A DNA stretch of 64,000 bases from Mytilus galloprovincialis (Eukaryota; Mollusca; Bivalvia; Mytilida; Mytilidae): contig NC_134849.1 of assembly GCF_965363235.1 (NCBI RefSeq), forward strand, positions 63,011,122-63,075,121, written 5' to 3'. The stretch's first letter is position 1, and each line of letters begins with the position of its first letter. The position numbers and the translations under genes were made by a program. Shown here in pieces: positions 6,383 to 63,894 of the stretch. The notes beneath the pieces were generated by a model. The model made no database searches, had not been told where the DNA came from, and saw only the letters and a program-made list of their open reading frames with translations.

Positions 6383-6837
6383 GTAAAATTCACACATTAA
6401 TTCAGTATGTATTATCTGTCCTGTGAAATATGGTTACTCTCTTTCAGCATTAATATATTCAAGAATGACTTGAACGAACTTACTTTAGGTTCCCTGTTTT
6501 TAATGATTTTAGAATTGAACATAGAAATACAGACAAGCAGACGGACAGACGATCGGTGAAACCTAAATAATTTCAATCAAAATCAGATTTATCATACTTC
6601 ATGGTGGTCCAACGTTCAATTTATGTCTTTACACAGTGTTCCAGATTGAATTGAAGAACAGAAGAATTCTAGTCAGCACGCAGGGCGATTTAGCGCAATA
6701 ATCAATAATTTTGGGAACTGTAGTGCAGCAAAATGATTATATAAAATAAAAAAAACTGATACATTAATTACTATAGGCAATAGACCTATACAATAAAGCG
6801 TTCTTAAGCTTCTTTTTTTTTTACAAATTTCCGTACT

Positions 6838-7251
6838 CTACACAGCTACTTTTGCATAGGTACTATTTCTGTACTTAAAGTATGTAGTACTGGAAATTTA
6901 CTTTTAATATTTAGTACTATTTCTGTACTTTAAAATTATTGTAATATTTAGGAATTTGTATTTTAAAGTACTTGATTTGTGCTAAATATTTTGGTACAGA
7001 AATAATACAATATTCCATGTTTGAAAATCATAATTTTAAGAGATTTGAAATAGAAAAACTTTCAAAATGCTGAAAATGTAACGGTAGTAACCAAAAATCT
7101 GTAGTGCCTAAATTTCAAGTACAAATTAAGTACTGTAAAATACAGGTACCTAAATATTACAATAATTTTAAAGTAACAAAATAGTACTGAATATTAAAAA
7201 TAAATTTCCAGTACTACAGATTTTTAGTACACAAATAGTATCTGTGTAAGC
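6838..7251. repeat. Long inverted repeat (hairpin MITE), about 415 bp
   Basis: Left arm 'acacagctacttttgcatag' and onward, through 'gtactggaaattt' and 'aaaattattgtaatatttag', is repeated in reverse complement ending at 'tatctgtgtaagc'. Arms exceed 100 bp. Lies in intron 1 of gene C. Confidence 0.8.
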
Positions 7252-7782
7252 TTTATCAAAAATGACAACTAATAAATAGTTCATGATTTTTTTTCCAGAG
7301 TACATTGTCAATCAAAACTTATAATAATAATACTTTATTCAGAAGCAATACAGCTTATAGAATATACAATTTTACAATATTTTTTTTTGAATGCATCAGT
7401 GAAATATAAATACAATAATTATACACAATATATGTATGGCGGAGAATGAAAATAAATTCATATGATCAATAATTAATACAACTACATATTACGATTTTTT
7501 TCAATATTAAACAAAAATTTACCTAAATTATTAAGTTCTTTCGCATTGTGAACTGATAACAACTGTAACATCTGAAGGATTCCAAGGGTTTTATTAATTG
7601 TTTCGTGGTATTGAAATTCCTTACTCAATAATGTAATAGTTATGTATAGATTACGACAGCAAGTCTATTTAGATTGATCATCATGTGTGTTATATGGTAT
7701 GTTTTGTATCAAATTGTATTTCGAAATAATACCTGGCAGCAAGAAAAAAAAAATGCACATGAATAGTTAATCTCACTCATAT

Positions 7783-8197
7783 ACGGAAGCCGTAAGGGGA
7801 CACACAAAACATAAGAAAATATTTTTTTTAATTTGAGATCATTACCGTTTTACCGAGATCTCGATAAAAAATATATATTGTTATCTCGATAAAACGAAAT
7901 TGTTATATCGAGATCTCGGATTATCAAATCGTTATTTCGGATTATTAAATCGGTATCTCGATTTATTATATCGTTATCTCGATTTATTATATCGTTATCT
8001 CGATTTATTATATCGAGATCTCGGATTATTATATTGTTACACTACAGTCCAGGTGGACTTTGTCATTTCCATTTCGTTTTATCGATATAACGATATATTT
8101 TTTATCGAGATCTCGGTAAAACGGTAATGTTTTATCGTGATCTCGAATTAAAAAAAATATTTTCTAATGTTTTGTGTGTCCCTTTACGGCTTCCGTA
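7783..8197. repeat. Palindromic element with GAGATCTCG tandem core
   Basis: Arms of about 120 bp start 'acggaagccgtaaggggaca' and end with the reverse complement 'tgtccctttacggcttccgt'. The centre holds several 'atcgttatctcgatttatt' units, each containing self-complementary GAGATCTC-like words. The 75-residue open frame here is a by-product. Lies in intron 1 of gene C. Confidence 0.88.
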
Positions 8198-9450
8198 CTC
8201 ATATTCCAGAAATTTGTCATTTGATTTAATGACATAATTTGACAACAAAATTTATGCTCATCAATATCTGAACTGTCATGATTATGTCCGCAAGCTTAAC
8301 GTGTATAATATTATACTTTGTTGTTAAAACCTAATCTGAAAAACTGAAATTAATTGTCTCACACTGACCACGTACCAGAAGCGAAATTTATGCATGCTGT
8401 TTCCAGATTTAATCTTTGCCACCGTAATTTGTCAGGGAACTAATAATGAGAACAAGAACACATCAAATAAGAGAAAAGCAGTTAAGATAATTAAGATTAT
8501 TTCCTAAAAATAAATTTAGGACTATTTAAAGTCATATCTTAAATATTATAATCCTTTAAAAATGATAATGAAAAAGAAATGAAAAACAGAATGCAATTTT
8601 TGTAGTCCCTAAATTTTGAGCTGGCGATTTTAAGATTGTTTCGGTTTCAAAAAGGAACGATCTGTCGAAGATGTGAATTTAATTTTGAACTTCACACTGA
8701 AAGTACAATGCTATGATAACTTTATAAATACTCATCCGCAAGTTATAAACATGAAACAAAATTAAAACACTAGAACATCGTAAGAGATTGAGGAGATGCA
8801 TTTATGAAAGTAATTTCTTAAGTTACCCAATATTCAACAGTGTTCTGTCGATTTTCGCATTTTTGTCCATACGTGGGCCGACAAGCAACACGCATGTTTG
8901 AAGGTGACATTGATTCATTTAATATATACGGCAGACAAATTTCTAATAACAGGAAATGCCCGTATCACGTCAGGATTAAAACAATTGTTTTCCATTCGTT
9001 TAATGGGTTTGAGATTTTTGATTCTGCGAATTGATGACGGCCTTTCCGTTTTGAATTTTCCTTGATGTTCGGTATTTTTATATATCACATTTTCTATGAA
9101 TGCATTCGTTAAGGTTGTTGCTTGTTCTTATTATTTTTATGTTTTGCAAACGTTGTTTGTCTTTTGGTCTTTTCGCGTTTTGCTTTGCCGTTGGTAATTT
9201 TCCTCAAATGTTCTGTTGGTATCTTTAGCATTTTTTCTTTAAACCTTCTTATTAAAAATAAATACAAATTTATAATAAACTGATTTCTAATGATTTAATT
9301 TTATAACAGTTGTATTATAAATAATAGGTAACAATAATTAAACGATGCTGAACTATTCTACTTTTTTGTATTCTAAATTGTATCTATTAGGAAAATGAAA
9401 TACTGAGTAAACAACAAAACCTAAAGAGTTAGCTGTTTCAGAATCAAAAG
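8198..9450. other. Unassigned AT-rich intron sequence
   Basis: No exon with splice signals or recognisable repeat found. Confidence 0.5.
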
Positions 9451-9746
9451 AGCCGAGTTCACTCGAAACTCTTCAATCGATTTCAGACTTAATAGATTAT
9501 CACGTAAACGCACTAGAAATGATATTCGGAACAACTCTAAGTAACTCTAGGGTAAGGCCCTGATCAAGCATAAAAATAAAATATTCTCATTGGTTTGACG
9601 TCATTCAAGAGTGTCTCGAGTTAAACCCTGGCTCGGTGAGGGTTGGAACCAGAGTACGAGGGGTTAACTCGATAGGTTCAAGTAAAATTGTTTTGTTGAA
9701 ACCCGAGTAAGTACAGTTCACTCGAAAGGTTCAAGTGAACTCGGCC
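9451..9746. repeat. MITE-like element with inverted ends
   Basis: Ends 'gccgagttcactcgaa' and the reverse complement 'ttcaagtgaactcggc' bound about 296 bp; the right arm itself contains a further 'gttcactcgaa' hairpin. Confidence 0.7.
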
Positions 9747-9850
9747 AAGGACTATGGGTAGTTGGGGTTTCGAACACCAAATTAGAATTACCATTAGTGG
9801 AATTTCCATTTTTCAACACATTATAGATGTTTTAAACAAATCACGATGCT

Positions 9851-10063
9851 TTAGATAGAGTAAAGAAGATGTAGCATGAGTGCCAACGAGACAACTCTCC
9901 ATCATAGTCACAATTTTTAAAAGTAAACCATTATAGGTCAATAGTATGGTCTTCAACGCGGAGTCTTGGCTCATACCGCACAGTGAGCTATAAAGGGCCA
10001 CAAAATTTACTAGTGTAAAACCATTCGAACAGGAAAACCAACCATCTAATATATATATAAAAA
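9851..10063 (+). repeat. Interspersed SINE/MITE-like unit, family 1
   Basis: Contains 'gagtgccaacgagacaactc', 'aaaccattataggtcaat' and 'tgtaaaaccattcgaacagg'. Related copies lie at 34608-34770, 48800-48955 and 59553-59760, with a reverse-orientation relative at 30830-30965. A common bivalve repeat to my knowledge. Confidence 0.75.
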
Positions 10064-46069: not shown

Positions 46070-47440
46070 ACGAACAACGGTATATTGCTGGGTCTTCCAA
46101 GTACCCCACAATACTTCTTTCTAAATTGTTCACATCTATTTTATCAGCAATCAAAGCCAGGCTTTAAAGTTATAGTGAAACTGGCTTTTCTAGTGGTGGC
46201 GTGAATCAGATATGGATACTAAATATTTCTAAAGATCCTTTTAGATCTTTTTCGAGTACATACAATCTAAGACTCTTTCATCTTGCAAAAGTATTAAAAC
46301 ATTTGACTATTCCACACTTTATACAAGTATTCCCCATTTCAAACTAAAAGAGTTGGAATTGCTTTGTTTCTTAAAAAAAATGGACATCATATATACAAGT
46401 ATCATGTCTTAGGGAGGAATAAATCCTACTGTGTAAAGGATCACACTGATTGAAACAAAAAATCTTCTGAAACTGACATTATCAAGAGGCTTTATTTCTT
46501 GATTGACAACATATTTGTGACGTTTGGAGGATGTGTTTTTCTACAGACTGCCGGTATTCCAATGAGAACCAACTGTGCCCTTCTTCTGACTTGTTTCTTT
46601 ATTATTATGAGGCTGACTTTATGTCCATGTTCTTACGATGAAAAATAAGAAATTAACAATATCCTTTAACTTTACTTTCCGCTATAAAGATGATGTTCTC
46701 TCACTAAATAATTCAAAATGTGGTGACTATAACAAACGCATCTATCCCATCGAACTAGAGATAAATAATACAACAGATACAGTTAAGTCTTTCTCATATC
46801 TTGACTTATAGAGAAATTGACAATGAGGGTCGGTTGAAAACAAACCTTTAAGACACACGAGATGATTTCAGCTTCCCAATTGTGAATTTTCCATTTCTAT
46901 GTAGCAACATGCCATCAGCGCCTTCATACGCAGTATGTATCTCCCAATTGAAACGATATTCTCGCGCTTGTATTTCCTATGAAGATTTCCTTAATAGAGG
47001 GTTGTTGCTTACTAGAAAACTATTAAACAAAGAGATATAAATGGTAAAGTTGAAATCATTCATTCGTAAAATTTACGAACGCCATCACCAGTTGGTTGAC
47101 GGTTATGGAATTACCGTTTCACAGATGATATCGGATATGCTCCTTACGTCGTAATTACAATCCCCATTCCCTTTGCATGAATGTGACCTACCGATTTAAA
47201 CTATTTATCGAATTTGTATAACAAGAGCAACACGACGGTTGACACGTGTGGAACAGGTTCTGCTTACCCTTTTGAAACACCTGAGATCACCCCCAGATTT
47301 TTGTGGAGTTCGCGTTGCTCAGTCTTTAGTTTGACATGTTGTTTCTTGTGTACTATTATTTGTCTGTTTGTCTTTTTCATTTTTAGTCATGGCGTGGTTT
47401 GTCAGTTTATTTTCGATTTATGAGATTGACTGTTCCTCTA
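46070..47440 (+). mobile_element. Penelope-like element, near-complete RT core to 3' tail
   Basis: In order on the plus strand, with several frame changes: RYIAGSSKYPTILLSKLF (46078), GVNQMWILNISKD, TFDYSTLYTSIPHFKLKE, YHVLGRNKSYCVKDHTD, TAGIPMRTNCALLL, FRYKDDVLSLNN, IDNEGRLKTN, FSFPIVNFPFL, LLLTRKLLNKEI, YERHHQLVDGYGITVSQM, then the 3' tail to about 47440. Stops and frameshifts show a dead copy. It sits in intron 1 of gene B, opposite in orientation to the gene. Confidence 0.9.
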
Positions 47441-47569
47441 GTATCTTTTGCTTTTCTTAAATTAGTTCATCAAGATTTTTAAACACCATTTTGTCTATTA
47501 ATAAGATAGAAAAATAATTCTAAATATAAAAGACAACATAATTAAAAGAAAAACATGAATGATACTTGC

Positions 47570-47899
47570 CATTTTCCAGTCTGAAATGTCCGAATAGCTA
47601 TACCCTGGCGTACTAACCAACTGACTTTTTAAGTCCGAATTTGATAATAGCTCGCACTTAAGAAAATCCTTTTGAAAGTTTACACCGTTACAATTCTTTT
47701 TTCGTAAGCATTCTCGAATACACATTTTGGGACCAATATTATCGCGAGTTAAGATAATGTGGGAGTTCATTTTCTTCTTATTTTGAAAATTTCCACCGAT
47801 TACAGTATCTTGGAAGCAAAGCCTAATTTTAAGACACAAAATATAAATAAAAATAAAGATTCTCATTTTAGCTGAAAACGAAGCACAGTTATGTTTCAT
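47570..47899 (-). CDS. Gene B exon 1: signal peptide + PAN/apple-like domain, GC donor
   Basis: First exon of a complete four-exon gene (47899-47570, 45701-45599, 44287-44136, 41358-41191; 250 aa). ATG at 47899-47897; residues 1-29 form a signal peptide (a start at Met12 is also possible). PAN-like region 32-110 with Cys60-x3-Cys64, Cys70 and Cys82, ending GYSYSDISDWKM. The exon ends in a GC donor (ATG|GCAAGT); the paralogue D has GT at the same site. Predicted secreted PAN-EGF-CUB protein, likely a recognition or adhesion molecule (inference). Confidence 0.9.
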
Positions 47900-48555
47900 G
47901 TATTCTAACTCGTTTTAATTTATCCTTGTCGGTTTACTCAAGTTTTAGTTGAAATCAATTAAATTAAATAGATCAAAACGAGATTGTTAATTCTTTGTTT
48001 GAATTAGGAATAAAGCATCTTTTATGCTGTCAATTATCATAACTTATGAATATTGACATGATTATAGAACAATAAAGATATCTGGTGTTATTTAAAAAGA
48101 TATTAGCAACCAGAGATCAAATAAGCAACTATTAGTTTTCAAATACATGTACCTCTGATTGTTCCAATTCATATTGGCAATCAGCAAGTATAGATTTGTT
48201 TCTATATATATATATATATATGTATGACACCCTACCGAGTAATCAAATTGGCTTTCTCTTTTGCTAGACTAGAAAGAACTAAATATGAGTTTATTTATTA
48301 ATTGCCATTTTTGGTCCTGCATGATATTTATACTTAAAATTTGGTCTTGCGCAAAGACGTTTTGTCTTAGACTAATAATGACGTCGTTACACATGTTACA
48401 TCTAATACGTTGGAGATATACTGATTGATATGTAAGTTTCGGAGGTCATTGTTTTTTTTTCTTATTTTTAATTGGATTTTAAACTGTATTTCATTGCCTG
48501 AAAGTTATATTATATTGTTAATTGATGTTTGATTTTGAAAGTTTTTTTTTATCTT
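47900..48555 (-). promoter_or_regulatory. Upstream region of gene B, duplicated upstream of gene D
   Basis: In reverse complement this region matches 50370-50496 plus 62580-63088, the upstream sequence of gene D. It carries the uninterrupted version of the 12-kb insertion site at 48402-48405 (TTAG against TTAA). Conserved words include 'caaaacgtctttgcgcaaga' and 'ggcaattaataaat'. A promoter role is inferred from position; no core element is named. Confidence 0.75.
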
Positions 48556-48659
48556 TGTTTGACGTCAATATATGGAATTTTATGCAACTGTCATACAAGT
48601 GCGAGATAAAGCTAGCTTTGCAACATGGTTTTATACACCATTTTGTACATGAGAAAACT

Positions 48660-48955
48660 CATGTGCCAAGACAGGAATATGACAGGAAAATGACAGTTGT
48701 TATCCGCTCCTTAGATGTGTTTGTGCTTTTGATTTTGTCATTTGATTAGGAACTTTCCGTTTTGAATATTCCTCGGAGTTCAGTTTTTTTGTTATTTTAC
48801 TTTTAACACCAGAGACCAAATGATATAGAGGTAAATAACTGTTGTTCAACGTTCGGCCTTCAGCAATGAGCAAAAGCCATACCGCAAAGTCAACTATAAA
48901 AGGCCCCAAAAATGACAAATGAACTGGAAAAATAACGACCTGATTAATGTACAAA
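48660..48955 (+). repeat. Family-2 SINE-like unit followed by family-1 unit
   Basis: 48660-48805 has 'gtgccaagacaggaatatga', 'ttttgattttgtcatttgat', 'cctcggagttcag'. 48806-48955 has 'ggccttcagcaatgagc' and 'ctataaaaggccccaaaa'. Confidence 0.7.
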
Positions 48956-49845: not shown

Positions 49846-50369
49846 CGTACTAAACAATCTTATGATCCCTTGAAAACTAATTCAAAGGCATGTATGAAAC
49901 GTAAACATTACTGAGATCTTTCCGCATGGCGGAAGCCATGAGAGATGCAAACAATGAATCAAAAGAATATTATGTAACATTTATCAATCAACAATAGGAA
50001 ACTTCAGTTTACTAGATTGCTTTCATATGAAAATATTTATCATGTAGTTTCGAATAATGAGAAAATTAGCAAGCATACATGTACATCAAAGTCATCGCAT
50101 TTAAGCAACTACATGGTTGCTAAACAAAAACATTCAAAATAATATTAATAACTACATAGTTCGTTCTAAAATAAAAAGCTGACAACATTTCTGTTGAAAA
50201 TTTTCTTACAACAACCACTTAAGTACATGTACGTGTTCCTGCATTAGAACAGACACATAAAGAAGCAGAGTTAAAAATGTTTTCCAGCGCGTTATTTTTC
50301 AATCATATAGGACAGTGGTTTCACAACACATTGGTCAAAAGATAAACATCAAAGTCGAAGGAATTGACT
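49846..50369. other. Unassigned
   Basis: No supported feature. Confidence 0.45.
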
Positions 50370-50496
50370 CATCAAATAGAAATCAAACATCAATATAACT
50401 TTCAGACAGTGGAATACTGTTAAAAAAACTAAAAAAAAATAACTAAGAAACAATGGCCTCCACAACTTACATATCAATAAGTATATCTTCAAGGTA
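50370..50496 (+). repeat. Distal part of gene D upstream region (left of the 12-kb insertion)
   Basis: 'aaatcaaacatcaat', 'ataactttcag', 'aacttacatatcaataagta' match gene B upstream in reverse complement. Homology stops at the TTAA and resumes at 62580. Confidence 0.85.
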
Positions 50497-50500
50497 TTAA

Positions 50501-50550
50501 GAGGCTGTCCATTTGAAAACCAGGCAAGGGATGCATAAATGTTGGCACAT
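50501..50550 (+). repeat. Left terminal inverted repeat of the 12-kb element
   Basis: GAGGCTGTCCA ... GAAAACCAGGCAAGG ... TTGGCACAT (50542-50550). Confidence 0.88.
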
Positions 50551-51084
50551 TAAATTTTCTTAAAATTAGTTTTCTTGCATTAAATGCCCTTGTTATTAGA
50601 TGCAACAAATAGTGTGTATTTGTTTTTTGGATGAAAGTTTGATATAGTCTAAAAATTTGGGAGGTTTTAGTACCTTGTTTTCCCCTTTATGTCCATTGTA
50701 AAAGTGCAATTTTTAAAATTGTTTTTTTTTTGTTCCACATTTATTTGAAATGTAAAAATTGTTTAAATATTTAGATAGATGTGTAATTAATACTCTTAAG
50801 CTAAAAAAATATTGGGATCTACATTATTAGTGCTTATTTCTTTGTTTGAACCATATCATAAAACTAGTATCTGGATTACCTCCCTTTGAATACCAGTGGG
50901 AATATTTTCAATGAATATGTTATTTTGTCAATGAAATATTACAATGAATATTCTATCAATGATAATAAATTACAATATTGGGGAAAACACACAAAGACTG
51001 TGATAAAACTCTTTTTATTGAAACAATGAATTAAAAAAAATATATTTGCTGCGGATTCATTTACTGCATTTGTATACAAGAAAA

Positions 51085-51460
51085 ATGGAGGGAACAAATG
51101 ACTTCTGCAGTTTCAGCAGGTTAGGAGACTGTTCTGGCCATATCATCCATTTTCTTGACTGCCAAAAAGATGTTGTTGCCCACCTTAGATATCTCAAAGT
51201 GTGCACTACAGGTGCAAATGTAAATGAGCAGGATCTAATATTGTATCGCGCCGGCTTATTTGATGTTGATGCAGCCTGCAGGCAATTACTACTTATTTGC
51301 AAAGCCCATAGAGATTCACTTGGGACTTATTGGAAAACAAACAGTTTGAAGTGTGCCTATCCAGTCCATACAACAAAGTGTAAAGGAGATAGGGCTATTG
51401 ATTTTAAAACATCGAAAGAACTATTTTTCCTTTATCAATCCTTGATACCTGTTGGAAGTG
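51085..51460 (+). CDS. Zinc-finger gene exon 1: Cys/His-rich N-terminal domain
   Basis: First exon of a six-exon gene (51085-51460, 55265-55378, 56056-56178, 57039-57180, 59360-59450, 60281-60844; 469 aa), an uncharacterised protein. ATG at 51085 in the good context 'agaaaaatgg'. Residues 72-75 (C-x2-H in LLICKAHRDSLGTYW), Cys90 and His95, and Cys128-x2-Cys131 across the first intron (IPVGSGICKPC) form a pattern I recall from many uncharacterised coral, hydrozoan and mollusc proteins with 'ICxxHRxxLGxxW ... PVGSGICxxC'. Probably zinc binding. Donor GTAAGT in phase 1. Lies inside the TTAA-flanked element, 585 bp from its left end. Confidence 0.85.
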
Positions 51461-51664
51461 GTAAGTTACATGTAATTCAGATATCAATTCAGGTTGTGCC
51501 CTTTCCCTAATATGTGTCCATTACCGGTAGCCTGCCAAGCTTACAGAACAGGTACATGTACACATGTAGTATATATGTTAGACTCAAATCAAAGCCCAAT
51601 TTAATTTTATATGTCATAATATAAAACAAGCATCCAAATCAACGTCAGATTTTTGGCTCCTCAA

Positions 51665-52132
51665 GGTGTCAGACCACCAATTACTCCCTCCAATTTAGAA
51701 CGTATGTAAAAGTAGTCCTACTTTGACACAAAATAGTGCTTTTGATGTCATTGTTTACTTAAACTTACCAACAAATTTGCAGAAATGAAACTTTTGGTGA
51801 AAGGGAAATATATTTAGACCATTTTGAGCCAAAATTCACTTGTCTATGAATTTGCATTAAAAATTCAGGATTAATGCGCTACATAGTACACTAATTTAAG
51901 ATTTCCAGAAAACCGGGAGTTATTTTGGTAGTACCTGTCTTTTCAAAATCAGAAATTTGTTACAAGACTTTAAACATTGGTTGAAAATTGGCATGTAGGA
52001 AGGTGATACATGTACAATTCAGGATATACCTGGTTTCCTTGAAGTTAAACTTAAGGTAAAATATTTAGAAAGCTGTGAAAATTGCAAAATTTGGTTGAAC
52101 AGATAGGGATTTTTAATTGGTGGTCTGACACC
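51665..52132 (+). mobile_element. 468-bp MITE, copy 1
   Basis: Inverted ends GGTGTCAGACCACCAATTA and reverse complement. Left flank TCAA (51661-51664), right flank TTTA (52133-52136). Same length and almost same sequence as 52993-53460 (one difference noticed: 'tatgaatttg' against 'tatgagtttg'). In intron 1 of the zinc-finger gene. Confidence 0.93.
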
Positions 52133-52136
52133 TTTA

Positions 52137-52988
52137 AGGGAAATGCGGTGAAACCCCAAATTCAGAAAACAATTGATTTTTTGTACTTAACTGATCATAT
52201 GAAGTGATAGTAGTCACATTTCAATCTTTTTGGGGGCAAAAAGTCACATATTGCAAATTTAGAGCCGTAGACCTGAATTTGTGCTATTTTTAGCTTTTCC
52301 CACCCTGACAATATGCTTTCACATAAAAAAATGTCCCAAATTGTTATAAATGCACAGCAAGATGTTTCTGTGGTATTAACATTAAAACATGGTTATTTTA
52401 CCACCAAAAAAAGTTCTTGTCATCAAGATTTAATGAAATTATTTGATTTTTATCCCTTATATCATTGCGTCATAGCATGTATTTGGCAGATAACATAGCC
52501 TGATGTAAACATTGCAAAAACTCACAAAAATCCCATTTATTATCTCAAATGAAAGTTTTATGCCTTAAGTTGTATCAACTGATAGAAAATAAAAACAGTG
52601 AAATGACCATGACTGCACTTTTGATCATTTAATAGTCCCATTACTTACACCAGGTGTAAAAAAGGGGGGTCAATATTCCTTGACTCTTCAATACCTTGAA
52701 TTTTTTACTTAACCCATTGTAAAAATTGTGGAAAGTCTTTTAAGAAGTAGAAGAAACAAGAAAAAAATCACCAAAACTGATCTTGATATTGGAAGTTTAT
52801 GTTCCTGTAGTCCAAAATGTAATTTTCAAGTATTTTCTATCAAAGTCATACATTACAGTCAGTTTAAATTGAGCTGTGAAATTTGTAATATAAGTCACAT
52901 TATGCTCAGATAGGATTTTTCTGACTTCAAATTGACTAAGGATTCAGAATAAAGCAAAGCAAAGATTTCTGAGCAACTTTTTTGGCTC
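52137..52988. other. 852-bp segment between the two identical MITEs
   Basis: Not recognised; AT-rich, no coding. Bounded by TTTA on both sides. Confidence 0.6.
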
Positions 52989-52992
52989 TTTA

Positions 52993-53460
52993 GGTGTCAG
53001 ACCACCAATTACTCCCTCCAATTTAGAACGTATGTAAAAGTAGTCCTACTTTGACACAAAATAGTGCTTTTGATGTCATTGTTTACTTAAACTTACCAAC
53101 AAATTTGCAGAAATGAAACTTTTGGTGAAAGGGAAATATATTTAGACCATTTTGAGCCAAAATTCACTTGTCTATGAGTTTGCATTAAAAATTCAGGATT
53201 AATGCGCTACATAGTACACTAATTTAAGATTTCCAGAAAACCGGGAGTTATTTTGGTAGTACCTGTCTTTTCAAAATCAGAAATTTGTTACAAGACTTTA
53301 AACATTGGTTGAAAATTGGCATGTAGGAAGGTGATACATGTACAATTCAGGATATACCTGGTTTCCTTGAAGTTAAACTTAAGGTAAAATATTTAGAAAG
53401 CTGTGAAAATTGCAAAATTTGGTTGAACAGATAGGGATTTTTAATTGGTGGTCTGACACC
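52993..53460 (+). mobile_element. 468-bp MITE, copy 2
   Basis: Same orientation as copy 1. Left flank TTTA (52989-52992), right flank TCAA (53461-53464): the mirror of copy 1. Confidence 0.93.
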
Positions 53461-53569
53461 TCAAATCGACGTCCATTTTCGAGGAACTGCTGCATGACAT
53501 TTTGCAGCCAATGACTTTATTTATGGCTTTTTTGTGTCTTTCGAAATATAAATAAAATACAGAAATAAT

Positions 53570-53672
53570 TGCAGGATAAAGACAATAACTGCTAAAAGCT
53601 CGCATACACCTAGTTTCCTAGCATCGTACAAATACAGCTGATTTTTAAAGACACTAAACAGTTATAGTCTAT
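53570..53672. repeat. Hairpin MITE, family 5, internally shortened
   Basis: 'ggataaagacaataactg', 'ctaaaagctcgcata', 'cgtacaaatacagctgattt', 'aagacactaaacagttat'. Compare 20935-21090. Confidence 0.85.
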
Positions 53673-53704
53673 ATATTATATGCAGTAAGGGAGCTACCAT
53701 TTGA

Positions 53705-53935
53705 TTTTTAGGGGGGGGGGGGGGTAGGTTTAGGATGAAAAATTTTGTCCTGCATTTTTGTTTAGTTGTAATCTCAGTCCTGCCTTTTTATTTTTTACTA
53801 TATTTGCATTGGTCCTGCATTTTTACAAGTTTATCTTAATTTTTTTGCCGCCCAGTTGCTCATCTTGCCTTTTTTTACTCAAAACTCCTGTCCTGTCTGT
53901 TTTTACCCAGAATTCCTATCCTACGTGTACCTATA
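53705..53935. repeat. G run and degenerate TCCTGCCTTTTT tandem repeat
   Basis: A run of 14 G at 53711-53724 precedes repeated 'gtcctgcattttt' / 'tcctgcctttt' units of about 30 bp. The 119-residue frame over it is low complexity and not called. Confidence 0.7.
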
Positions 53936-54682
53936 AATGTTTTTGTAGCAAATGTGCAAAGGACAAAATCGCACACAATACATATAAAATATACAAGTTT
54001 TCAATCAATAGGGCCTTTATTCCTGTTCTCCATCTTGACATTCACCCCACGGTCTTCAACATTGAAAGAATCATTGTACCCTACAAGATGGCCACTAGAA
54101 TGAATAGGGTCCGCTGAAACAGTACTATTGATAAACATAACCATGTTCAGGTTCTTGCTCTTTGCCCACTGTGGCGTGCCTACTAGGATGATATGTGTGT
54201 ACTGCATTTTTCAAGTCAAATGCACCAGGGATACAAGAAAAAATGCAGTGATTTTAAAAGAAATTACCCCAAAAACAAGCTTTGAAGCTACAAATGTTGG
54301 AAGCAGTCAATGAATTTCAAAACTTTTAATTACGGGCAGGTTTGCCGATGCCAAATAAAATAATGTGTGTGTTTCCTATTACATCTTTGAAAAAAATAGG
54401 GTAGGTACATGTAGGTAGTGATTCTAGGAGGGAAATCCTTACTTTTAAAAACAGCGTTATTGAAAAATGGCAAAACAAACTTTAAGGTACATGTACATGT
54501 AGGCTATTTTTAAGCTTAAATATAGGGAAGTAAAAAACACACATATTTTTTATTTGGCCTTACATTTGTACACATACATTGTATTTGTCAATTACAGTCA
54601 TATATTTCCCAACAAAAGACCAATACATATAAAACGAAACAAAAATGATAGAAGGCACTTAGCACATTGACATATAATATAT
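53936..54682. other. Unassigned intron 1 of zinc-finger gene
   Basis: Scattered 'gtacatgtacatgtagg' words; nothing else. Confidence 0.45.
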
Positions 54683-54832
54683 CAGGCGCGGATCCAGATG
54701 GGGGTTCTGGGGGTTGGAACCCCCCCTTTTTTTTGGACGATCAATGCATTTGAATGGGGACATATAGTTGGAATCCCCCCCTTTGTCCTGGGTTAGGAAC
54801 CCCCCCTTTTTAAAAGGGCTGGATCCGCCCCT
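54683..54832. repeat. GGATCC...GGGGGTTGGAACCCCC hairpin repeat, copy 1
   Basis: 'gcggatccagatgggggttc', 'gggggttggaaccccccc', 'gatcaatgcatttgaatggg', closing 'ggctggatccgcccctg'. Ends are mutually complementary. Confidence 0.88.
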
Positions 54833-55264
54833 GCATATCATTATCTATGATGAGTTTATTATATGTAAAAAATCATAGCAGTTTTAAAATGTACGAAATG
54901 ACACAAAAAAAAAAAAAAACGATGACTAGGTCAATATTTTGAAGAAATAAAAAAGATACTTAATAGTCGTAGGAGGTCAAATTTGTTTATCAAAGAAAAA
55001 ATGCACAAGTTGCAGATAAATGAACTCGATCTTTTTGTCTGTTTATGATTATTCCATATTCTGATTACATGAATATCTTGACTGACTTGAAATTTCCCAT
55101 CTGTCAGACCTGTTTTCTTTCCCTTAAGTAAAATTCCGAATATTTTAATCTGGATTTTACCAGGGCGTTTTTTTTTTTTATTGTATTTACTTCCGATAGA
55201 AATTTTTCCTTTGTTTATATTGGCCTTGTAAAATTTGTTTATCTTTTTTAAAAACATTTTGCAG

Positions 55265-55378
55265 GAATATGTAAGCCATGTAGAACTTCTCACCCTCATG
55301 TGATTTCTACAAGGAGTCAAATGTACAGGACAACTTCATGTGGGGATGATACAGAATCAATAGAACTTGCAAATTTAG
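55265..55378 (+). CDS. Zinc-finger gene exon 2
   Basis: AG acceptor 'ttttgcag', GT donor, phase 1 to phase 1. Encodes GICKPCRTSHPHVIST then a Ser/Thr/Asp-rich stretch. Completes the N-terminal Cys/His pattern with Cys128 and Cys131. Confidence 0.85.
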
Positions 55379-55615
55379 GTATGATATATATAAGTTGTTG
55401 TCTACTCTATATAATTTCTGTTATCCAGTGAACATAGTAAATCTGTAAATTTATGAAAAGCTTTAAGAAAAGCTTATGGTCTACGTCATAATTTCTGTTA
55501 TCCAGTGGATCTGTAAATTTATGCAATCCTACGTAAATCTTACATTCGAAATTGAAGTCAACTCGAAGTTCAAATCTAAAAGTACAAAGAGCAAAGCTGC
55601 GTTATCATCTATCTT

Positions 55616-55770
55616 TTCTGGTTCTTGCATCCGTCTGTCAGTTTGTCCGTCTGTCCCGGATCAGTTTGAATTATTTAGTCAAGGAAGTTTATTATGAAGT
55701 AAAAGTCACACTAACTTGAAACCTAGTCATGCTAGTACACACGTCCCTATAGCTAATGATAAGATTTTTA
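55616..55770 (+). repeat. Interspersed repeat, family 3, diverged
   Basis: 'gtccgtctgtcccggatcag', 'aaacctagtcatgctagtac', 'acgtccctatag'. Confidence 0.65.
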
Positions 55771-56055
55771 ATCAAAATTTAAAGTTCGGACTAGAAGTTA
55801 TATGTATTAACTCTACAATAAATTTGAACATTTAGATTAAATTTTGGTCACGCTTTGCTAATCATGCTAATGCAGCTTTCACTTATTTTTTTTTATTTCT
55901 GCAGCATGATACTTTTATTTTATGAATTGTTTTGGTGTTTTTTAAGAAACTTTTTTATAATTCACTTTCTTCATGAATAATTTTAATGCCAGTCTTTTTC
56001 TTGATTTTTAATTTTAAATTTAAACTAAATATATATATATATTTTTTTTTAACAG

Positions 56056-56178
56056 ATATTTATCATAAAGATGATAAGGATGATTCATGCAATAACCATA
56101 CAAGTACTCAAGATTATGAATATGCCACAGAAAAAGAGGAAAATTTCATAAGTGCCAGTCAGACTTCTGATTGTGCAT
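56056..56178 (+). CDS. Zinc-finger gene exon 3: acidic linker
   Basis: Phase 1 to phase 1. DIYHKDDKDDSCNNH and YEYATEKEENF: acidic, low complexity, probably unstructured. Acceptor 'ttttaacag', donor GTAAGT. Confidence 0.8.
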
Positions 56179-56470
56179 GTAAGTAAATTAAGTAATACAG
56201 AAAACCAAAAAGTTTGTTTATGAGAAAGTTTGGGGACACAATGAATAAATGATTATGGTCCAAATAGCACAGTATGATACATTTACCGGAGATGAAAATT
56301 CCAAGAGACCAAACAGTCCTTTCAAGGGCTACCAAATTGTTTTAAAAAAAAAATCTGATAGTGTTATTTTTAGTCAACATTTTTTTTTAAATATCTTTCT
56401 GATTTTAAATTGTTACCTCTCTTCACTGAATTACTAACAAAAGCACTATTGAAACAATTTGTCGGAAGTA

Positions 56471-56632
56471 TATGATAAAGAGATTAATACATGACCTTTT
56501 CCATATCAGCCTGGGTATCATCCCTTGACCCATATTGGCACTCAACTAAAGTCTCAGGGTGATATGGGGGTCACTGGATGTTACCATGGCCGTTATAGAA
56601 AAGACTATGTATTAATCTATATATAAGAGCTA
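56471..56632. repeat. Hairpin repeat, family 9
   Basis: 'gagattaatacatgaccttt' pairs with 'aaaagactatgtattaatct'; 'cagcctgggtatcatccc' pairs partly with 'gggtgatatgggggtcac'. Half copy at 17203-17280. Confidence 0.82.
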
Positions 56633-56807
56633 TTGTCCTTAAAAAAGTAAAAAAATGACATTTTCTCTAGATGTTTAGCTAATTATATAATTTGCAGTGT
56701 AAATCATAATAGATAATTAAAAACTTTTTGTTTCACTCTTGGGTAAAAAAATGTTAATGAGATTTCTAATTTTTCCAGGTACGCAATTCAGGCATTATAG
56801 AGCCTCT

Positions 56808-56962
56808 ATTAATATTGGTGGATCCAGGGGGAGGGTTCTGGGGGTTGGAACCCCCCCTTATTTGGGGGCGATCAATGCATTTAATTGGGGACATATAGTT
56901 GGGCCCCCCCTTTGTCCTTGGTTGGGAACCCCCCTTTTTAAAATGACTGGATCTGCCCCTGA
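56808..56962. repeat. GGATCC...GGGGGTTGGAACCCCC hairpin repeat, copy 2
   Basis: Direct-orientation relative of 54683-54832, about 2.1 kb apart, in intron 3 of the zinc-finger gene. Confidence 0.88.
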
Positions 56963-57038
56963 TTAATATTTATTGCAGAAATAACTGGTAAAATACCCAA
57001 CAGAATAAAATATTCATATACATGTATTTATTTTTCAG

Positions 57039-57180
57039 CTTATTTTTTTCCAACTCAAAGTACTGCCACGTTGATCAGCAGCCATGAAGAATGGGAACCT
57101 GAAATGTCTTGCTTAGAGAAAGTCAATGCTGTCATCAAACTTGTTTCTGATGGCTCTTTTCCACTATTCATGCTATTGAG
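57039..57180 (+). CDS. Zinc-finger gene exon 4
   Basis: Phase 1 in, phase 2 out. SYFFPTQSTATLISSHEEW, EMSCLEKVNAVIKLVSDGS, FPLFMLL. No named domain. Acceptor 'tttttcag', donor GTAATG. Confidence 0.82.
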
Positions 57181-57199
57181 GTAATGTTATTTTTTGAAA

Positions 57200-59160
57200 A
57201 TTTTTTGGTCGTACATTGGTATCACATCGTCATAGTCGTTGTCTTCTGAAGACATTTCGTTTTCGCATTCTTACTTTTGTAAAAGAAAATAAAAATCTAT
57301 GAAAAGAAAGGTTGGGATTGATTTTGGGTGTTTTGGTCCCAACAGTTTAGAAATTAGGGGCCAAAAAGGTCCCAAATAAGCAGTTTTCTTTGTTTTCGCA
57401 CAATAACTTTAGTATAAGTAAACAGAAATCTATAGAATTTTAATACAAGGTCTATGACTACAAAAGGAAGGTTGGGATTGATTTTGGGAGTTTTAGTCCC
57501 AACAGTTTAGGAATTAGGGGCCAAAAACATTTCCCAAAGAAGCATTTTTCTTGTTTTTTGCACAATAAATTTAGTATAAGTATATAGAAATCAATGAAAT
57601 TTTAACACAAGGTTTATGACCACAAAAGGAAGGTTTGGATTGATTTTGGGAGTTTTGGTCCCAATGAATTAGGGGTCAAAATTAAAGGGTCAAAATTAAA
57701 GGGTCAACTATTTAATCGCAATCCAAATTCAGAGCTGTATCAAGCTTAAATGTTGTGTCCATACTTGCCCCAACTGTTCAGGGTTCTCCCTCTGCAGTCG
57801 TATAAAGCTGCGCCCTGCTGAGCATCTGGTTTTACATGACTGCACTAAAAATGTATTTGTAATTTTATATTGCTATCAGTCTATCATGTTAGTGTCATTG
57901 TCAGTAGACATTTGGTTTCTAGACAATAACTTTAGTATTTATAAATGAATCTCTAGATTTAGATTTATGGCCCCTGACCTGACAATGTTAACTGTTCCTG
58001 CAGTTTTTGTCAATATTATACATGTATGCTTGAAAATAACAGAAGAATGATGTTTAAGAACAAATTTTTAAACTTTGTAGCTTAGTTCATCATCCAAGAT
58101 GGCTGCTTATTTTAACTTAGGACCCTATAGGAATTACATACAAATGTCTCCTTTTAGAGAACCACTGAATGGATTAAAACAAAACATGGCATGAATGTTC
58201 CTTATGGGGTGCTGACTAAGTATTGTTTATTTTTATCCGATCCATCATCCAATATGGCTGCCAGCAGGGGACTTAGTTTAACATATAGGACCTATAGGAA
58301 ATACATGCAAATTTCTTCTTTTAGAAAACCACTAAATGGAATGAAACCAAACATGGTATGATTGATCCTTATGAGATGATGACCAAGTGTTGTTACTTTG
58401 TAACTTGATTCATCATCTAAGATGGCTACCAGCGGGGGACTTAATTTAACTTAGGACCCTATAGGAAATACATACAAATGTCTTCTTTTAGAAAACCACT
58501 TTATCGATTGAAACCAAACATGACACGAGTGTTCCTAATGACTCAGTAATGAGGTGCTGACCAAGTGTTTTTACTGGGTAACTTGTACTTTTTTGTAGCC
58601 AAAGTGTGTTTTTCTAACCAAACTAATCCTTTGGCAAATAAAAAAGTTCCAATAAATAGAACCAGATGCTCCGCAGGGCGCAGCTTTATACGACCGCAGA
58701 GGTTGAACCCTGAATGGTTGGGGCAAGTATGGACACAACATTCAAGCTGGATTCAGCTCTAAATTTGGATTGTGATTATATAGTTGACACATCATAGGTT
58801 TCTGACACAGAATGAATGTGGTCTAATGAACTTAAAATATTTTTTTCATAGGCGGAACAAACTTGAAAACTGGGCCCATAATCAATAATCTAAGTACATG
58901 TTTAGATTCAGCATAACAAAGAACCCCAAGGATTCAATTTTTGTTAAAATCAAACTAAGTTTAATTTTGGACCCGTTGGACCTTAATGTAGACCAATTTG
59001 AAAATGGGACCAAAACTTAAGAATCTACATACACAGTTAGATTCAGCATATCAAAGAACCCCAATTATTCAATTTTTTATGAAATCAAACAAAGTTCAAT
59101 TTTGGACCCTTTGAGCCCCTTATTCCTAAACTGTTGGACTCCTCAAATGTACATTTTACA
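57200..59160. mobile_element. Large repeat cluster with inverted outer arms and three internal tandem units
   Basis: 'ggtcccaacagtttag' / 'aattaggggccaaaa' units at 57340, 57480 and 57650, and their reverse complement ('ccttattcctaaactgttgg') at 59117. A further pair, 'gccccaactgttcagggtt' with 'gcagtcgtataaagctgcgc' at 57765-57830 and its reverse complement at 58660-58740. Between them three tandem units of about 150 bp with 'catccaagatggctgc' at 58095, 58250 and 58410. Intron 4 of the zinc-finger gene. I know this as a common bivalve repeat family; its class is uncertain. Confidence 0.75.
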
Positions 59161-59359
59161 TGAATGTTGAACTAAGTAATAATATATAAGCTTTAGAAGT
59201 CCAAAGCTTGCTCAAAGATCCTTAAATTACTAAGTTAAATTTTACATGTTTAAAACTCAGTTATGTAAAATCGACTTTCTTATCTGTTATCACCTATATT
59301 AATTTTAGATAACAACATTGGAAATATGTGTTTATGATTAGTATATTTTTACAGGAAAG

Positions 59360-59450
59360 AAATGAAACAGGAGATGCTGAAGACAATATAGAGGAAATAA
59401 ATGAGCAGAACACAGAAGAAAATGCTGCTAGTCATGACCAGATGAATGAG
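59360..59450 (+). CDS. Zinc-finger gene exon 5: acidic linker
   Basis: NETGDAEDNIEEINEQN, EENAASHDQMNE, strongly acidic. The obvious acceptor 'tttttacag' ends at 59354, but that start does not fit the phase left by exon 4; an AG at 59358-59359 does fit and is used here. A missed small exon between 57180 and 59354 is the alternative. Donor GTAACA, phase 0. Confidence 0.65.
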
Positions 59451-59552
59451 GTAACAGATACATACAATGTATATTCTTTAATTGTTAACATCACTATCCT
59501 TTCATCTTGCAAAAGAAATTAAGGATGGACCAATCTTTCTAGACTTTGACAA

Positions 59553-59760
59553 TATTGTTCATAGATATAAGAAGATGTGATGTGAGTGCCAATGAGACAA
59601 CTCTCCATCCAAATAACAATTTAAAAAGTAAACCATTATAGGTCAATGTACGGCCTTCAACATGAAGCCTTGGTTCACACCGAACATCAAGTTATAAAGG
59701 GCCCCAAAATTACTAGTGTAAAACCATTCAAACTGGAAAACCAAAGGTCTAATGTTTGTT
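59553..59760 (+). repeat. Interspersed SINE/MITE-like unit, family 1
   Basis: 'gagtgccaatgagacaactc', 'aaaccattataggtcaatgt', 'aaaaccattcaaactggaaa'. Confidence 0.8.
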
Positions 59761-59799
59761 TAGGTTTTATTAGTGTCCTGTGTTGTTAGTGTCTTTATA

Positions 59800-60180
59800 C
59801 CCCAAAAAAACCAAGTTTTTAGGGATATATATAGGAATCGCCCTGTCGTCCCTCCATCTGTCTGTCCATCATGTCTCATAAGTGCAACTCTTCCTTAATA
59901 TTGATGAAACTTCAAACAGTTGTAGTACACAACCAAAGGATGTGGAAAAAGGAAAATATTTCTGGATGGAACTATTTCAAGGGAGATAATTGAATTTACT
60001 TAGTTAAATATACATCTAGCAATAAATGGCAACAAGCTTGTTAGCCCAACTACTCCTAAAAAGGTTAATACTGATGAAACTTTACCCAGTTGTTGTACAC
60101 AACCTGTAGATATGCACGAAGGAGGATATTTCTGGTCTGATTTTTTTCAAGGGAGATGATTGAAATTACTTAAGTTTTAA
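59800..60180 (+). repeat. Repeat with two diverged tandem halves
   Basis: 'gatgaaacttcaaacagttg', 'gtacacaaccaaaggatg', 'aaatatttctgg', 'ttcaagggagat' occur in order at 59900-59990 and again at 60070-60160. The left part has CTGTCGTCCCTCC-type words like family 3. Confidence 0.75.
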
Positions 60181-60280
60181 TACCCACAAATTCGTTCACA
60201 GTATACATGTATGCATGATATAGTGATTCAATTCTGCTGTTTTTCACTTCTTTTATAGAAATGTAATTTTTCTTTTGCAG

Positions 60281-60844
60281 ACTGATGACTATACTTGTGG
60301 TGAATGTGGTCTAACATTTGTTAGTCTACATGAATATAACATTCACCAGGACATTGGAAATCATAATATCAGGCACGCTGATCGAGTAAAAACTTTTTGG
60401 AGTAGTAAATGCACTAATATAAAAGAGTCAATGACAAGTGTTTTTTCAAAAGCAACTGATGATGATCAGACACCACAGACTAAAACACAATGTTCACTAC
60501 ATTCAGGATGGTCATTGAAAGGAAGAAGAATGAATAAGAGATTTAGCATAGCTGTAAACGACTATTTACTTAATTTATTTATGGAAGGTGAACAAACTGG
60601 CCGAAAATATACTCCAACAGAGGCTTCCAAAAAAATAAGAGCAGTCAGGGATGAAAATGGGAATAGGCTTTTTTCACCAGAAGAATGGCTGAGCTCACAA
60701 CAAGTACAGGGTTTATTTTCCAGATTTGTCAATCAATCTGGAAAAATTCCTAAAGAGGAATCTGATGATGAATTAAATGATGCTATTATAGAAATTACTC
60801 GTCAGGAAAATGAACTTGAACTAATTCATTCCATTTGTCAATGA
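60281..60844 (+). CDS. Zinc-finger gene exon 6: C2H2 finger and conserved C-terminal block
   Basis: Residues 283-469. A single C2H2 finger: Cys288-x2-Cys291-x12-His304-x5-His310 (YTCGECGLTFVSLHEYNIH). Then a conserved block: GWSLKGRRMNKRFSIAVND, YLLNLFMEGEQTGRKYTP, EASKKIRAVRDENGNRLF, PEEWLSSQQVQGLFSRFV, followed by an acidic tail and TGA. I recall this 'K-RF-x-x-x-x-x-x-YL-x-x-x-F-x-x-GE-x-TG-x-K ... R-LF-x-x-x-E-WL-x-x-Q-Q-x-x-x-FSR' pattern, usually after a finger, in many uncharacterised aquatic invertebrate proteins; its function is unknown to me. Nucleic-acid binding is plausible. Confidence 0.9.
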   Translation, partial: TDDYTCGECGLTFVSLHEYNIHQDIGNHNIRHADRVKTFWSSKCTNIKESMTSVFSKATDDDQTPQTKTQCSLHSGWSLKGRRMNKRFSIAVNDYLLNLFMEGEQTGRKYTPTEASKKIRAVRDENGNRLFSPEEWLSSQQVQGLFSRFVNQSGKIPKEESDDELNDAIIEITRQENELELIHSICQ

Positions 60845-62431
60845 TTTTTTCTTTTATGCTGGAACTAAAATATGTATTGCAATGTTTTGACCAACCTATT
60901 GTGATATTCCTTTAGATTTATATTTTGTACCTGCTTCATAATTTTTATCTAGCCATCATAGTACAAGATTAAAAAGTAGGGATGAAGTGTAAATATTCAT
61001 GACACAAAATTCTAATATATATATATATATATGTATTTGCATGAATCATAGCAATGCATCAGGGTTTTAGCTGAGGTGCTACCAGACTATTGGGGATGGC
61101 AGATAGGGGTAAAGGTGTTAAAAATTGTTTTCAAGAAAATAACTCAAAAAGTTTATATCCCTGTCAAACCCTAAGAAATTCTGTTTCTTATGAAGTAAGC
61201 AAGCAATGATAGTTAGGGTAAATTTCGTCAAAAGGTCACAGGCACAAAAAATGAAATTACAAGTGGGTTTCAGACTATAAATCTCAAAAACTTTACATTT
61301 TATCAAAAGAAACTTGATGATATGGTTAAAATGTCTAGTATGTAAGAATTGTTATAATTTACACTTACTTTGCTTGTTAAAGGTCAAGGTTTCAATTACT
61401 AAACATGATAAAAATATTTCAGAAATTAGTTTTTTGAATGGAAGTTTGCTTGTGCACTATGGTACCATTTAGACTTTTATTGCTGTAAATTGAGAAACAA
61501 GAAACATGGAATAAATACTTGCACCTGACTGCAAGTTTAAGGAGGTCATGGTTAAATTCTTAGTTTATAGATTTGTAGTGCATGTACATACAATAATCAT
61601 TGCTAAAGAAAATAGAATTTGTTGCGATTGGTCTTAGAAATGGGTATGCATGTGAAGTTCACCGATACTTTCCTTGCCTATTTTATTCTGTAATTTTTGC
61701 AATATTGTGTTTTTTTCAACTTATCTTGAACCTTGTTTAAATATAAGATTGATCTATGGAATAAAAATAAATCTTTGCCATCACTATTTGCTTATTTGTG
61801 AGTTTGTGTGTAATTTAAATACATGATCATCTTGTATCGTGATCTTATCCATGGAGAAATTGAGGCTGCACCCATGTTAAAATATATTAAACATGAAAAG
61901 CAGTTATTAATTTTTAAGTTACTGATACCCCTTTCATTAAGAATAATGAGATTTGACTTTATTAAAAGAAAAATATGCATGCATGTGTAAAAGTTTGATC
62001 TGGCAATAATACAGTTTGAAGCTGTTTTTTGAGCTGAGAGGGCTATGCTGTTCTGGTTTTTTTTAGCCTTACAGGAATGTGATCCCACCAAATTTTTTGT
62101 TCTTTTTATTAAAGAATATGATAATCTGTTAGCTCTATATGGTACATTTCCAATATTTACCATGGATGGAATTCCAGAAGACTTCAAAAATGGCTGATTT
62201 TGGCAAAATGAACAATTGGCATTTTGGATGTCCTTATTAGGTGTTTTTTTTCCTTTGTCAATATATTGATTATAACAAGTAATTTATGGAATAAAGACAC
62301 TAAGGTGGATATTATCTTGTATCAATATAGTTAAGCTCTTAAAATTGTGATTAAGAAGAAATGTTGAATTGAAAATGTAGTAAAAATCAGTTTTTCTTGG
62401 CTGTTTCAAAGGCCAAAATGATGATGCTCGT
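60845..62431 (+). other. 3' region of zinc-finger gene, with poly(A) signals
   Basis: Candidate AATAAA signals at 61510 and 61760-61772 (two overlapping). A TA microsatellite lies at 61015-61031. A 131-residue frame on the minus strand (62187-61792) shows no domain and is not called. Confidence 0.55.
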
Positions 62432-62445
62432 GTTGCCATGGCAAC
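62432..62445. promoter_or_regulatory. Perfect palindromic RFX X-box
   Basis: GTTGCCATGGCAAC is the full symmetrical X-box bound by RFX transcription factors (GTNRCC-RGYAAC with no spacer offset). It lies 130 bp inside the right end of the 12-kb element and about 640 bp upstream of gene D. Binding is inference. Confidence 0.6.
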
Positions 62446-62536
62446 CGTGCACAATTTTTTTCCCCGACATTTTTTTTTTTCATTTCATGTCTTTAATAGA
62501 CTTCATGTAAAGTTTCATCGAAATCTGAGTCCCATG

Positions 62537-62575
62537 ATGTGCCAACCATTGCCTGAGTTTTCCTTGGACAGCCTC
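62537..62575 (-). repeat. Right terminal inverted repeat of the 12-kb element
   Basis: Reverse complement reads GAGGCTGTCCA, GAAAACTCAGGCAA, TTGGCACAT. Confidence 0.88.
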
Positions 62576-62579
62576 TTAA

Positions 62580-63088
62580 ATGTAACGAAGTCATTATTAG
62601 TCCAAGACAAAACGTCTTTGCGCAAGATCAAATTTTAAGTGTCATTAGATGCAGGACCATAAATGGCAATTAATAAATACAATTCATATTTAGTTATTTT
62701 TAATCTATCAACACAACAATCAAATTTAAGTACCGAAAAGGGTCTCAATTTATAGAAAAAAGTCTTTACTCGATAATTGCCAATATGGATTGGAACATAT
62801 CACAGGCTTGTGAGAACAAATAGTTGCTAATTTTGTGTCTGGTTGCTAATGATTTAAATCGGAATAACACAATATCTCTTAATGGTTCTATCATTTTGAT
62901 GTGATCATATCATTTTTGATAGTTGACAATATAAAGGATACAATATTAATAATTCAAACAAAGAATTGACAATCTCGTTTTTGATATAATATTATTCAAT
63001 TTAATTGATTTCAATTAAAAATTCATTTCAATGACAAAGACAAATTACAACGAGTTAGAAACATAACTGCGTTTCGTTTTCATCTAAA
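62580..63088 (+). promoter_or_regulatory. Proximal upstream region of gene D
   Basis: Matches gene B upstream (47900-48400) in reverse complement: 'gtcattattagtccaagaca', 'aacgtctttgcgcaaga', 'ggcaattaataaata', 'gacaatctcgttttt', 'acgagttagaa'. Promoter role inferred from position and conservation. Confidence 0.7.
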
Positions 63089-63394
63089 ATGGAAACCGTT
63101 TTTATTCATATTTATATCTATATTATGTGTCTTGAAATTCAAATCTGCTTCCAAGATACTGTAAACGGTGGAAATTTTCAAAATAACAAGAAAATGACCT
63201 CTCACATTATATTAAATCGCGATAATATTGGTCCTAAAATGTGCATTCGAGAATGCTTACGAATGAAGAATTGCAACGGTATAAACTTTCAAAAGGATTT
63301 TCTTAAGTGCGAGCTCTTGTCTGATTTGAACGTAACAAGTCAGTTTGTTAGTGCGCCAGGGTATAGCTATTCAGACATTTCAGACTGGAAAATG
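63089..63394 (+). CDS. Gene D exon 1: signal peptide + PAN/apple-like domain
   Basis: ATG at 63089; residues 1-21 signal peptide; PAN-like region 24-102 with Cys52-x3-Cys56, Cys62 and Cys74. More than 80% of residues from TV-GGNFQN to DWKM are shared with gene B. Ends at a normal GT donor (ATG|GTAAGG), phase 0, where gene B has GC. Intron 1 sequence is also related to that of B ('gttgaatagttccgttaccg' region at 63765-63845, reverse). Remaining exons, expected to be an EGF-like module and CUB, lie beyond the window. Confidence 0.9.
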
Positions 63395-63894
63395 GTAAGG
63401 ATCGTTCATGTTTTCTTTTATATTTAGATTAATATTTCTATCAAATAAATAGATAAAATGTTTTATAAAAATATGGATATACTAATTAAATTGTTAAAAA
63501 GAGATGGAGTTAGTTGACTATATAGTTACGTGTTTTTATCTTTTTTCATTTCTTGTCATGTGTTTTGAATGCCCTGTTAGCATTTCGAATATTAAAAGAG
63601 GAAATAATCTTACCAATGTATTTTTTGCAACCAAATGAATTCAATGTTCAATTTACGGTTTCTGTATTCAATTTCTGAAATGCAATTCAAATTCTTCTGT
63701 TATTTCAAATATCGGTTGGACAGTTTCGAACTCTTCTGTTCTTTTAAATAAGGGTTTAACAGCAGGGACTCGGTAATACACTAATTGGTATTACTGACAT
63801 ACCCCTTTCTGCGGTAACGGAACTATTCAACTATAAACATAATAAGAAATTAAAAAAAAAAAAGATCTCTTAGTCGCATTTGGCACATTTATTT

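Follow-up and report, generated by a model that had tools for sequence, protein, structure and literature searches.

How does a 12-kb piece of DNA come to lie between two TTAA sequences when the single gene inside it encodes a zinc-finger protein with no visible transposase signature? The question is raised by a 64,000-nucleotide stretch of the Mytilus galloprovincialis genome (NC_134849.1, positions 63,011,122 to 63,075,121; this whole stretch is called the window), in which such an insert occupies positions 50497-62579. Based on comparison with other copies, the insert is very probably an internally deleted member of a TTAA-flanked DNA transposon family. The full-length sisters encode a predicted transposase with three conserved aspartates (DDD) and an RNase H fold, and the window copy lost both predicted core exons and likely relied on these sisters' enzyme to move. 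Nine elements have common ends, TTAA on both sides and unrelated flanks, with the core exons missing in six of them and present in two. Judging from the conserved D-D-D pattern and the predicted fold, the core would be the catalyst, and we infer cut-and-paste transposition with a 4-bp TTAA duplication.

An insertion with a paralogous empty site

The insert interrupts the upstream region of gene D (63089-63427), which forms a pair of inverted paralogues with gene B (47498-47899). Both have a PAN-type domain, slightly below the Pfam cut-off in D. According to the initial annotation, the homologous upstream sequence runs unbroken in B and is split by the insert in D. This holds, as the reverse complement of 47400-48700 (B) aligns, with a score of 988, through the joined flanks of D (50100-50500 plus 62580-63500), and the break between the two falls exactly at the insert position. 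The size given for the insert was also correct, with 12,075 bp between the two TTAA and 12,083 bp when both are counted. The same is true of the matching inverted termini bounded by TTAA, which consist of 15 identical bases including TTAA, followed by an imperfect repeat through GAAAAC/CAGGCAA (terminal inverted repeat of 37 nt, 78% complementary). Ends, target duplication and empty site had been said to agree; all three are present, but the joined D flanks have TATTAAATGTAACG and B, at the same place, TATTAGATGTAAC. B has TTAG rather than TTAA, and the duplicated TTAA is therefore read from D alone. The observation of a TTAA-flanked insertion with a paralogous empty site is confirmed, and its parts are as follows:

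50497-50500, no strand: TTAA, left copy of the target duplication
50501-50533, plus strand: left terminal inverted repeat, starting GAGGCTGTCCA (5'-RR)
62543-62575, minus strand: right terminal inverted repeat, ending TGGACAGCCTC (YY-3')
62576-62579, no strand: TTAA, right copy of the target duplication
48396-48410, minus strand: matching unbroken site in paralogue B (minus-strand sequence TATTAGATGTAAC)

The window holds 119,972 pairs of TTAA that are 0.2-20 kb apart, and an inverted match of at least 15 bases accompanies only three of these, namely this insert, a hairpin of 241 bp and the inverted B/D duplication. The hairpin, of about 241 bp at 6930-7171, has perfect inverted ends of 23 bases starting with TTAA and is possibly another miniature element.

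Sister copies in the genome

The 1.385-Gb assembly, in which the window lies on contig C12, was searched for the exact 15-base end. It occurs 138 times (68 + 70), against 0 + 1 for the reversed control. Locations were listed for 100 of the 138 ends, from which all element pairs and single ends were drawn. Eight pairs face each other within 20 kb, comprising two full-length copies (16-19 kb), five long core-less copies and one miniature of 404 bp. The search for further copies that the initial annotation had proposed therefore added eight end-paired elements, seven of them with the gene. There is no similarity among the 18 flanks of the window element and these eight pairs, so that the nine elements represent independent insertions. 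The first 60 and the last 60 bases are identical between the window copy and both full-length copies; among all long copies, the first 60 bases are identical in six and the first 40 in the other two.

The full-length copies, C8:9.81M (18,897 bp) and C8:68.08M (16,198 bp), contain all recognised coding exons (N-terminal, two core and C-terminal). The core exons are open in both, as read exon by exon rather than as a whole spliced frame. The two copies are 99.90% and 99.94% identical over two aligned parts, one of them having an extra 2.7 kb, and this near-identity suggests recent movement. Since the N- and C-terminal exons flank the core exons in these sisters, the zinc-finger gene of the window is the remainder of a transposase-like gene and not a captured one. 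Of the options left by the initial annotation, that of a lost transposase is the one borne out.

The gene and its missing core

A splice-rule model of the gene in the insert gives an open frame of six exons and 469 amino acids with standard splice sites. The one C2H2 finger in this protein is under the Pfam cut-off. The exons and the deletion joint are:

51085-51460, plus strand: exon 1 of what is left of the transposase-like gene, encoding a cysteine-rich N-terminal region, 94% identical to the N-termini of P0002 and P0004
55265-55378, plus strand: exon 2
56056-56178, plus strand: exon 3, matching P0004 164-208
57039-57180, plus strand: exon 4, joining exon 5 in frame; the two core exons come here in the full gene
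58600-58602, no strand: junction of the deletion of about 2.74 kb that removed both core exons, with CAA common to both sides
59360-59450, plus strand: exon 5
60281-60844, plus strand: exon 6, with the C2H2 zinc finger, a predicted homeodomain-like domain and the stop codon

The copy in the window tracks the full-length copy up to position 7,214 of the latter and resumes at 9,955 for 53 bases, then at 10,810 after rearranged intron sequence. In the full-length copy the core exons lie at about 7,382-8,152 and 8,767-9,867; the break from 7,214 to 9,955 spans both, and both are therefore gone. The termini are those of the full-length relatives, whose autonomy is presumed, the core is missing and the rest is kept, which is the make-up of an internal-deletion derivative. 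In four other core-less copies the match to the full-length copy breaks off at 7,143 and picks up again at about 10,003; in C3:79.68M the gap runs from 5,680 to 10,003. A single deletion shared by all core-less copies is not proven by these alignments. Over the longer aligned pieces, identity is about 95-99% between core-less copies and about 84-95% between these and the full-length copy. As they are closer to each other, the core-less form probably multiplied as such. Its gene is not generally maintained, given the defects in the other five core-less copies: the exon 1 donor is GC in four (which may still work), two have a 5-base loss in exon 2, and exon 6 has a frameshift in one copy and has lost its end in one copy. 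In exon 1, 22% of the synonymous and 3.5% of the non-synonymous sites differ between the window and the full-length copy. Measured against C8:68.08M, synonymous sites have diverged by 22% in exon 1 and by only 5% in exon 6, as if the copies had swapped pieces.

Two features of the introns were observed in addition. A repeat rich in C/G runs (GGGTTCTGGGGGTTGGAACCCCCC...) has two copies, at 54702-54842 and 56833-56970. Intron 1 carries a composite insertion of 1,796 bp (51665-53460), with ends GGTGTCAGACC/GGTCTGACACC, TCAA on both sides and two direct repeats of 468 bp that are identical at 467 of 468 positions and have 860 bp between them. Its empty site (GGCTCCTCAAATC...) is found in all four sister copies checked. 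This younger, nested insertion fits a non-autonomous KolobokP element.

Miniatures and single ends

Outside the pairs, 84 places with an end were listed, and the first 20 were compared over 700 bases each. All 20 begin like the 404-bp miniature. Sixteen match it over 390-417 bp and three over shorter lengths (155, 282 and 344 bp), and in L038 the match ends after the first 44 bases of the miniature. When the right end was placed without the use of TTAA, TTAA followed in 16 of the 20, with L030 as a 17th in another comparison; TTTT follows in L029 and TAAA in L036, and L038 has no right end in the stretch. A family of miniatures of about 405 bp (L021, L025-L044) thus exists with ends like those of the gene-carrying element. 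The initial annotation had named terminal sequences occurring as independent repeats, unrelated to the gene, as a finding that would refute it. Formally, the miniatures are such repeats. They are, however, similar to the two ends of the gene-carrying copies, as expected of miniature derivatives, and are therefore taken here as support for a transposon.

A protein family with a predicted DDD core

A protein search with the window gene returned three relatives. P0001 is a shorter M. galloprovincialis protein, P0002 shares the N-terminal part of the window protein and continues into a region absent from it, and P0003 from Ostrea edulis shares the C-terminal part, preceded by another region absent from the window. 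With P0002 and P0003 joined as the query, 115 proteins were found, and a profile of 46 rows found 118, many of about 1,000 amino acids. Mollusc hosts are Mytilus, Saccostrea, Ostrea, Magallana, Crassostrea, Pinctada, Argopecten and Patella; the other named hosts are corals, an octocoral, an anemone, Branchiostoma (amphioxus), the nemertean Lineus, the nematode Caenorhabditis remanei and the rotifer Didymodactylos. None of the named rows is called a transposase, although many rows are nameless, and the octocoral protein P0135 is called 'Retrovirus-related Pol'. No relative was found in the viral contigs and prokaryote genomes searched.

Three aspartates of the core (D572, D664 and D705 in P0023) are conserved in 46, 45 (with one gap) and 46 of the 46 rows, respectively. 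For the product of the missing exons an RNase H-like fold is predicted, which among the chains compared is structurally closest to retroviral integrase cores. When solved structures were searched by sequence with P0003, only the zinc finger was matched, and Pfam gave P0002 only weak rows below the cut-off (DUF433, E 0.009; DUF1233 'putative excisionase', E 0.12). P0178 of M. galloprovincialis combines a part of this transposase family (98% to P0023) with a YqaJ exonuclease domain and may be a fused model of neighbouring elements.

A protein search of the mussel genome gave at least 53 matches. Both core exons are matched at 98-99% in four loci and exon 1 at 88-99% in 14 places, and 31 rows are relatives with 35-48% identity. 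Twenty-one of these 31 rows, L053-L073, encode core relatives and include near-identical pairs (L054/L055, 98.9%; L059/L061, 99.5%) and, in L053, one open frame of 889 amino acids. Three candidates for element ends at these loci were rejected. The inverted pair at L066, the best at 15 of 18, looks like what we take to be a common mussel repeat; at the break in identity of L059/L061, TTAA is present in one copy only and L060 runs on past it; and there is no TTAA at that of L069/L071.

Alternative explanations

Several observations weigh against a deleted DDD transposon. As the pattern of the end search contained TTAA, the TTAA at the ends of the nine elements is not independent evidence. The exact joint of the window is found in none of the five other core-less copies. 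None of the 21 loci L053-L073, searched to 1.5 kb past each match, has a convincing inverted pair with TTAA. Foldseek alone gave no match below E 0.001, and Pfam found no transposase family in P0001-P0003 at E≤5 or in P0023, P0130 and P0169 at E≤0.01. The spliced gene models follow splice rules and homology, and in P0001, a gene model of M. galloprovincialis, the connection between exons 4 and 5 is not the same as in ours.

Capture of a host zinc-finger gene by a non-autonomous element, as the initial annotation had considered, would explain why the window gene by itself has a C2H2 finger and no DDE core. It is very improbable, as the same exons flank the core in two full-length copies, and many animals have proteins of about 1,000 amino acids that combine the core and the C2H2 tail in a single chain. 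An assembly artefact or a segmental duplication instead of transposition has nothing but the large size in its favour and, with nine elements in unrelated flanks and 138 ends, is barely credible. More weight, though still little, is given to the core-less gene being kept as a repressor of transposition, with the deleted copies as the selected form. The KP product of the P element represses transposition, and the open six-exon frame with standard splice sites and the low proportion of non-synonymous differences in exon 1 would fit such a role. However, the five other core-less copies are altered as described above, the low ratio relative to the full-length copy may have arisen before the deletion, and the differences among core-less copies are too few for a selection test.

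The TTAA duplication had been taken to point towards Kolobok or piggyBac chemistry, and neither is upheld by the features tested. The element shares the TTAA target with piggyBac, but its ends start with GA, whereas piggyBac ends start with CC, and no piggyBac or other transposase domain was matched in the relatives scanned by Pfam. A Kolobok transposon or a derivative of one has more in its favour but is still improbable. Passages of PMC9587614 describe Kolobok as common in bivalves, with a TTAA duplication, 5'-RR...YY-3' ends and, in almost all members, a zinc finger located after the second and before the third catalytic residue. The element likewise has the TTAA duplication and RR/YY ends (GA...TC), and 22 of 45 rows have at least three cysteines between the last two acids, which is compatible with a zinc-binding strip. 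The same passages give E as the last catalytic residue, with a C/DxxH motif that lies between it and the second D (PMC9587614); in contrast, the third acid here is D in all 46 rows, and C/DxxH occurs in none of 45. Terminal direct repeats of the KolobokP type (about 450 or 660 bp) were not seen at the insert ends among the 20 largest of 42 direct-repeat families, whereas the nested insertion in intron 1 does have such repeats.

Classification

The family is placed here among the TTAA DDD/E cut-and-paste transposons, with Sola3 as the best guess. The predicted fold and conserved acids recall retroviral integrase cores, and integrase motifs resemble the SDNA and GKxxCDR strips of the core, but the third acid is D and the core sits in a protein of about 1,000 amino acids with other domains. 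Sola transposons were reportedly described by Bao, Jurka and Kapitonov in 2009 as DDD enzymes with 4-bp duplications, those of Sola3 being TTAA. The 4-bp TTAA duplication and the conserved, predicted catalytic DDD are likenesses to Sola3, and the label of a Sola3-type DDD transposon was chosen by these described features and not by a Sola3 sequence. Occurrence in bivalves is a further likeness: passages of a bivalve-centred survey (PMC10294476) report 64 Sola3 elements found by hidden Markov models, none among the curated elements, and restrict Sola among molluscs to bivalves. The 16-19 kb of the full-length copies are, however, far above the longest mean lengths of curated elements given there (Sola1, 5,445 bp; Academ, 5,565 bp; PMC10294476).

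A bolder and rather doubtful proposal is an undescribed superfamily of TTAA-specific DDD transposons that are giant (16-19 kb), intron-rich and recently active. Their enzyme, of about 1,100 amino acids, would consist of an N-terminal region rich in cysteine, a DDD core resembling that of integrases, a C2H2 finger and a DNA-binding domain of the homeodomain-like type. One genome would hold full-length copies, gene-carrying copies without the core and miniatures, the last probably numbering more than 100. Relatives in animals ranging from corals to amphioxus would be filed as 'uncharacterized' or 'C2H2-type domain-containing'. A literature search returned no paper describing this family, a weak negative as most subscription papers and Repbase lay outside it.

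Proposed mechanism and significance

For an internally deleted transposon copy, the anatomy suggests the following course. The DDD enzyme, supplied by full-length copies, would recognise the common ends with its finger and homeodomain-like parts, excise the element and integrate it at TTAA. During repair that follows a jump, internal sequence may sometimes be dropped, and the deletion in the window, with its joint at three shared bases, probably arose in this way. The core-less long copies and the miniatures of about 405 bp, having kept the ends, would then be moved in trans by the enzyme of the full-length copies, and the several insertions at different sites fit such mobilisation. The remaining protein (N-terminal region, C2H2 finger and homeodomain-like domain), if made, might, at a guess, bind the ends without cutting.

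A TTAA element that apparently lacks a transposase thereby gains a candidate enzyme. The TTAA footprint is what makes piggyBac useful, and this family would give TTAA integration a further enzyme, of the DDD type. The results also suggest that transposase genes, whole or as remnants, lie behind many of the uncharacterised 'zinc-finger proteins' annotated in mussel, oyster, coral and amphioxus.

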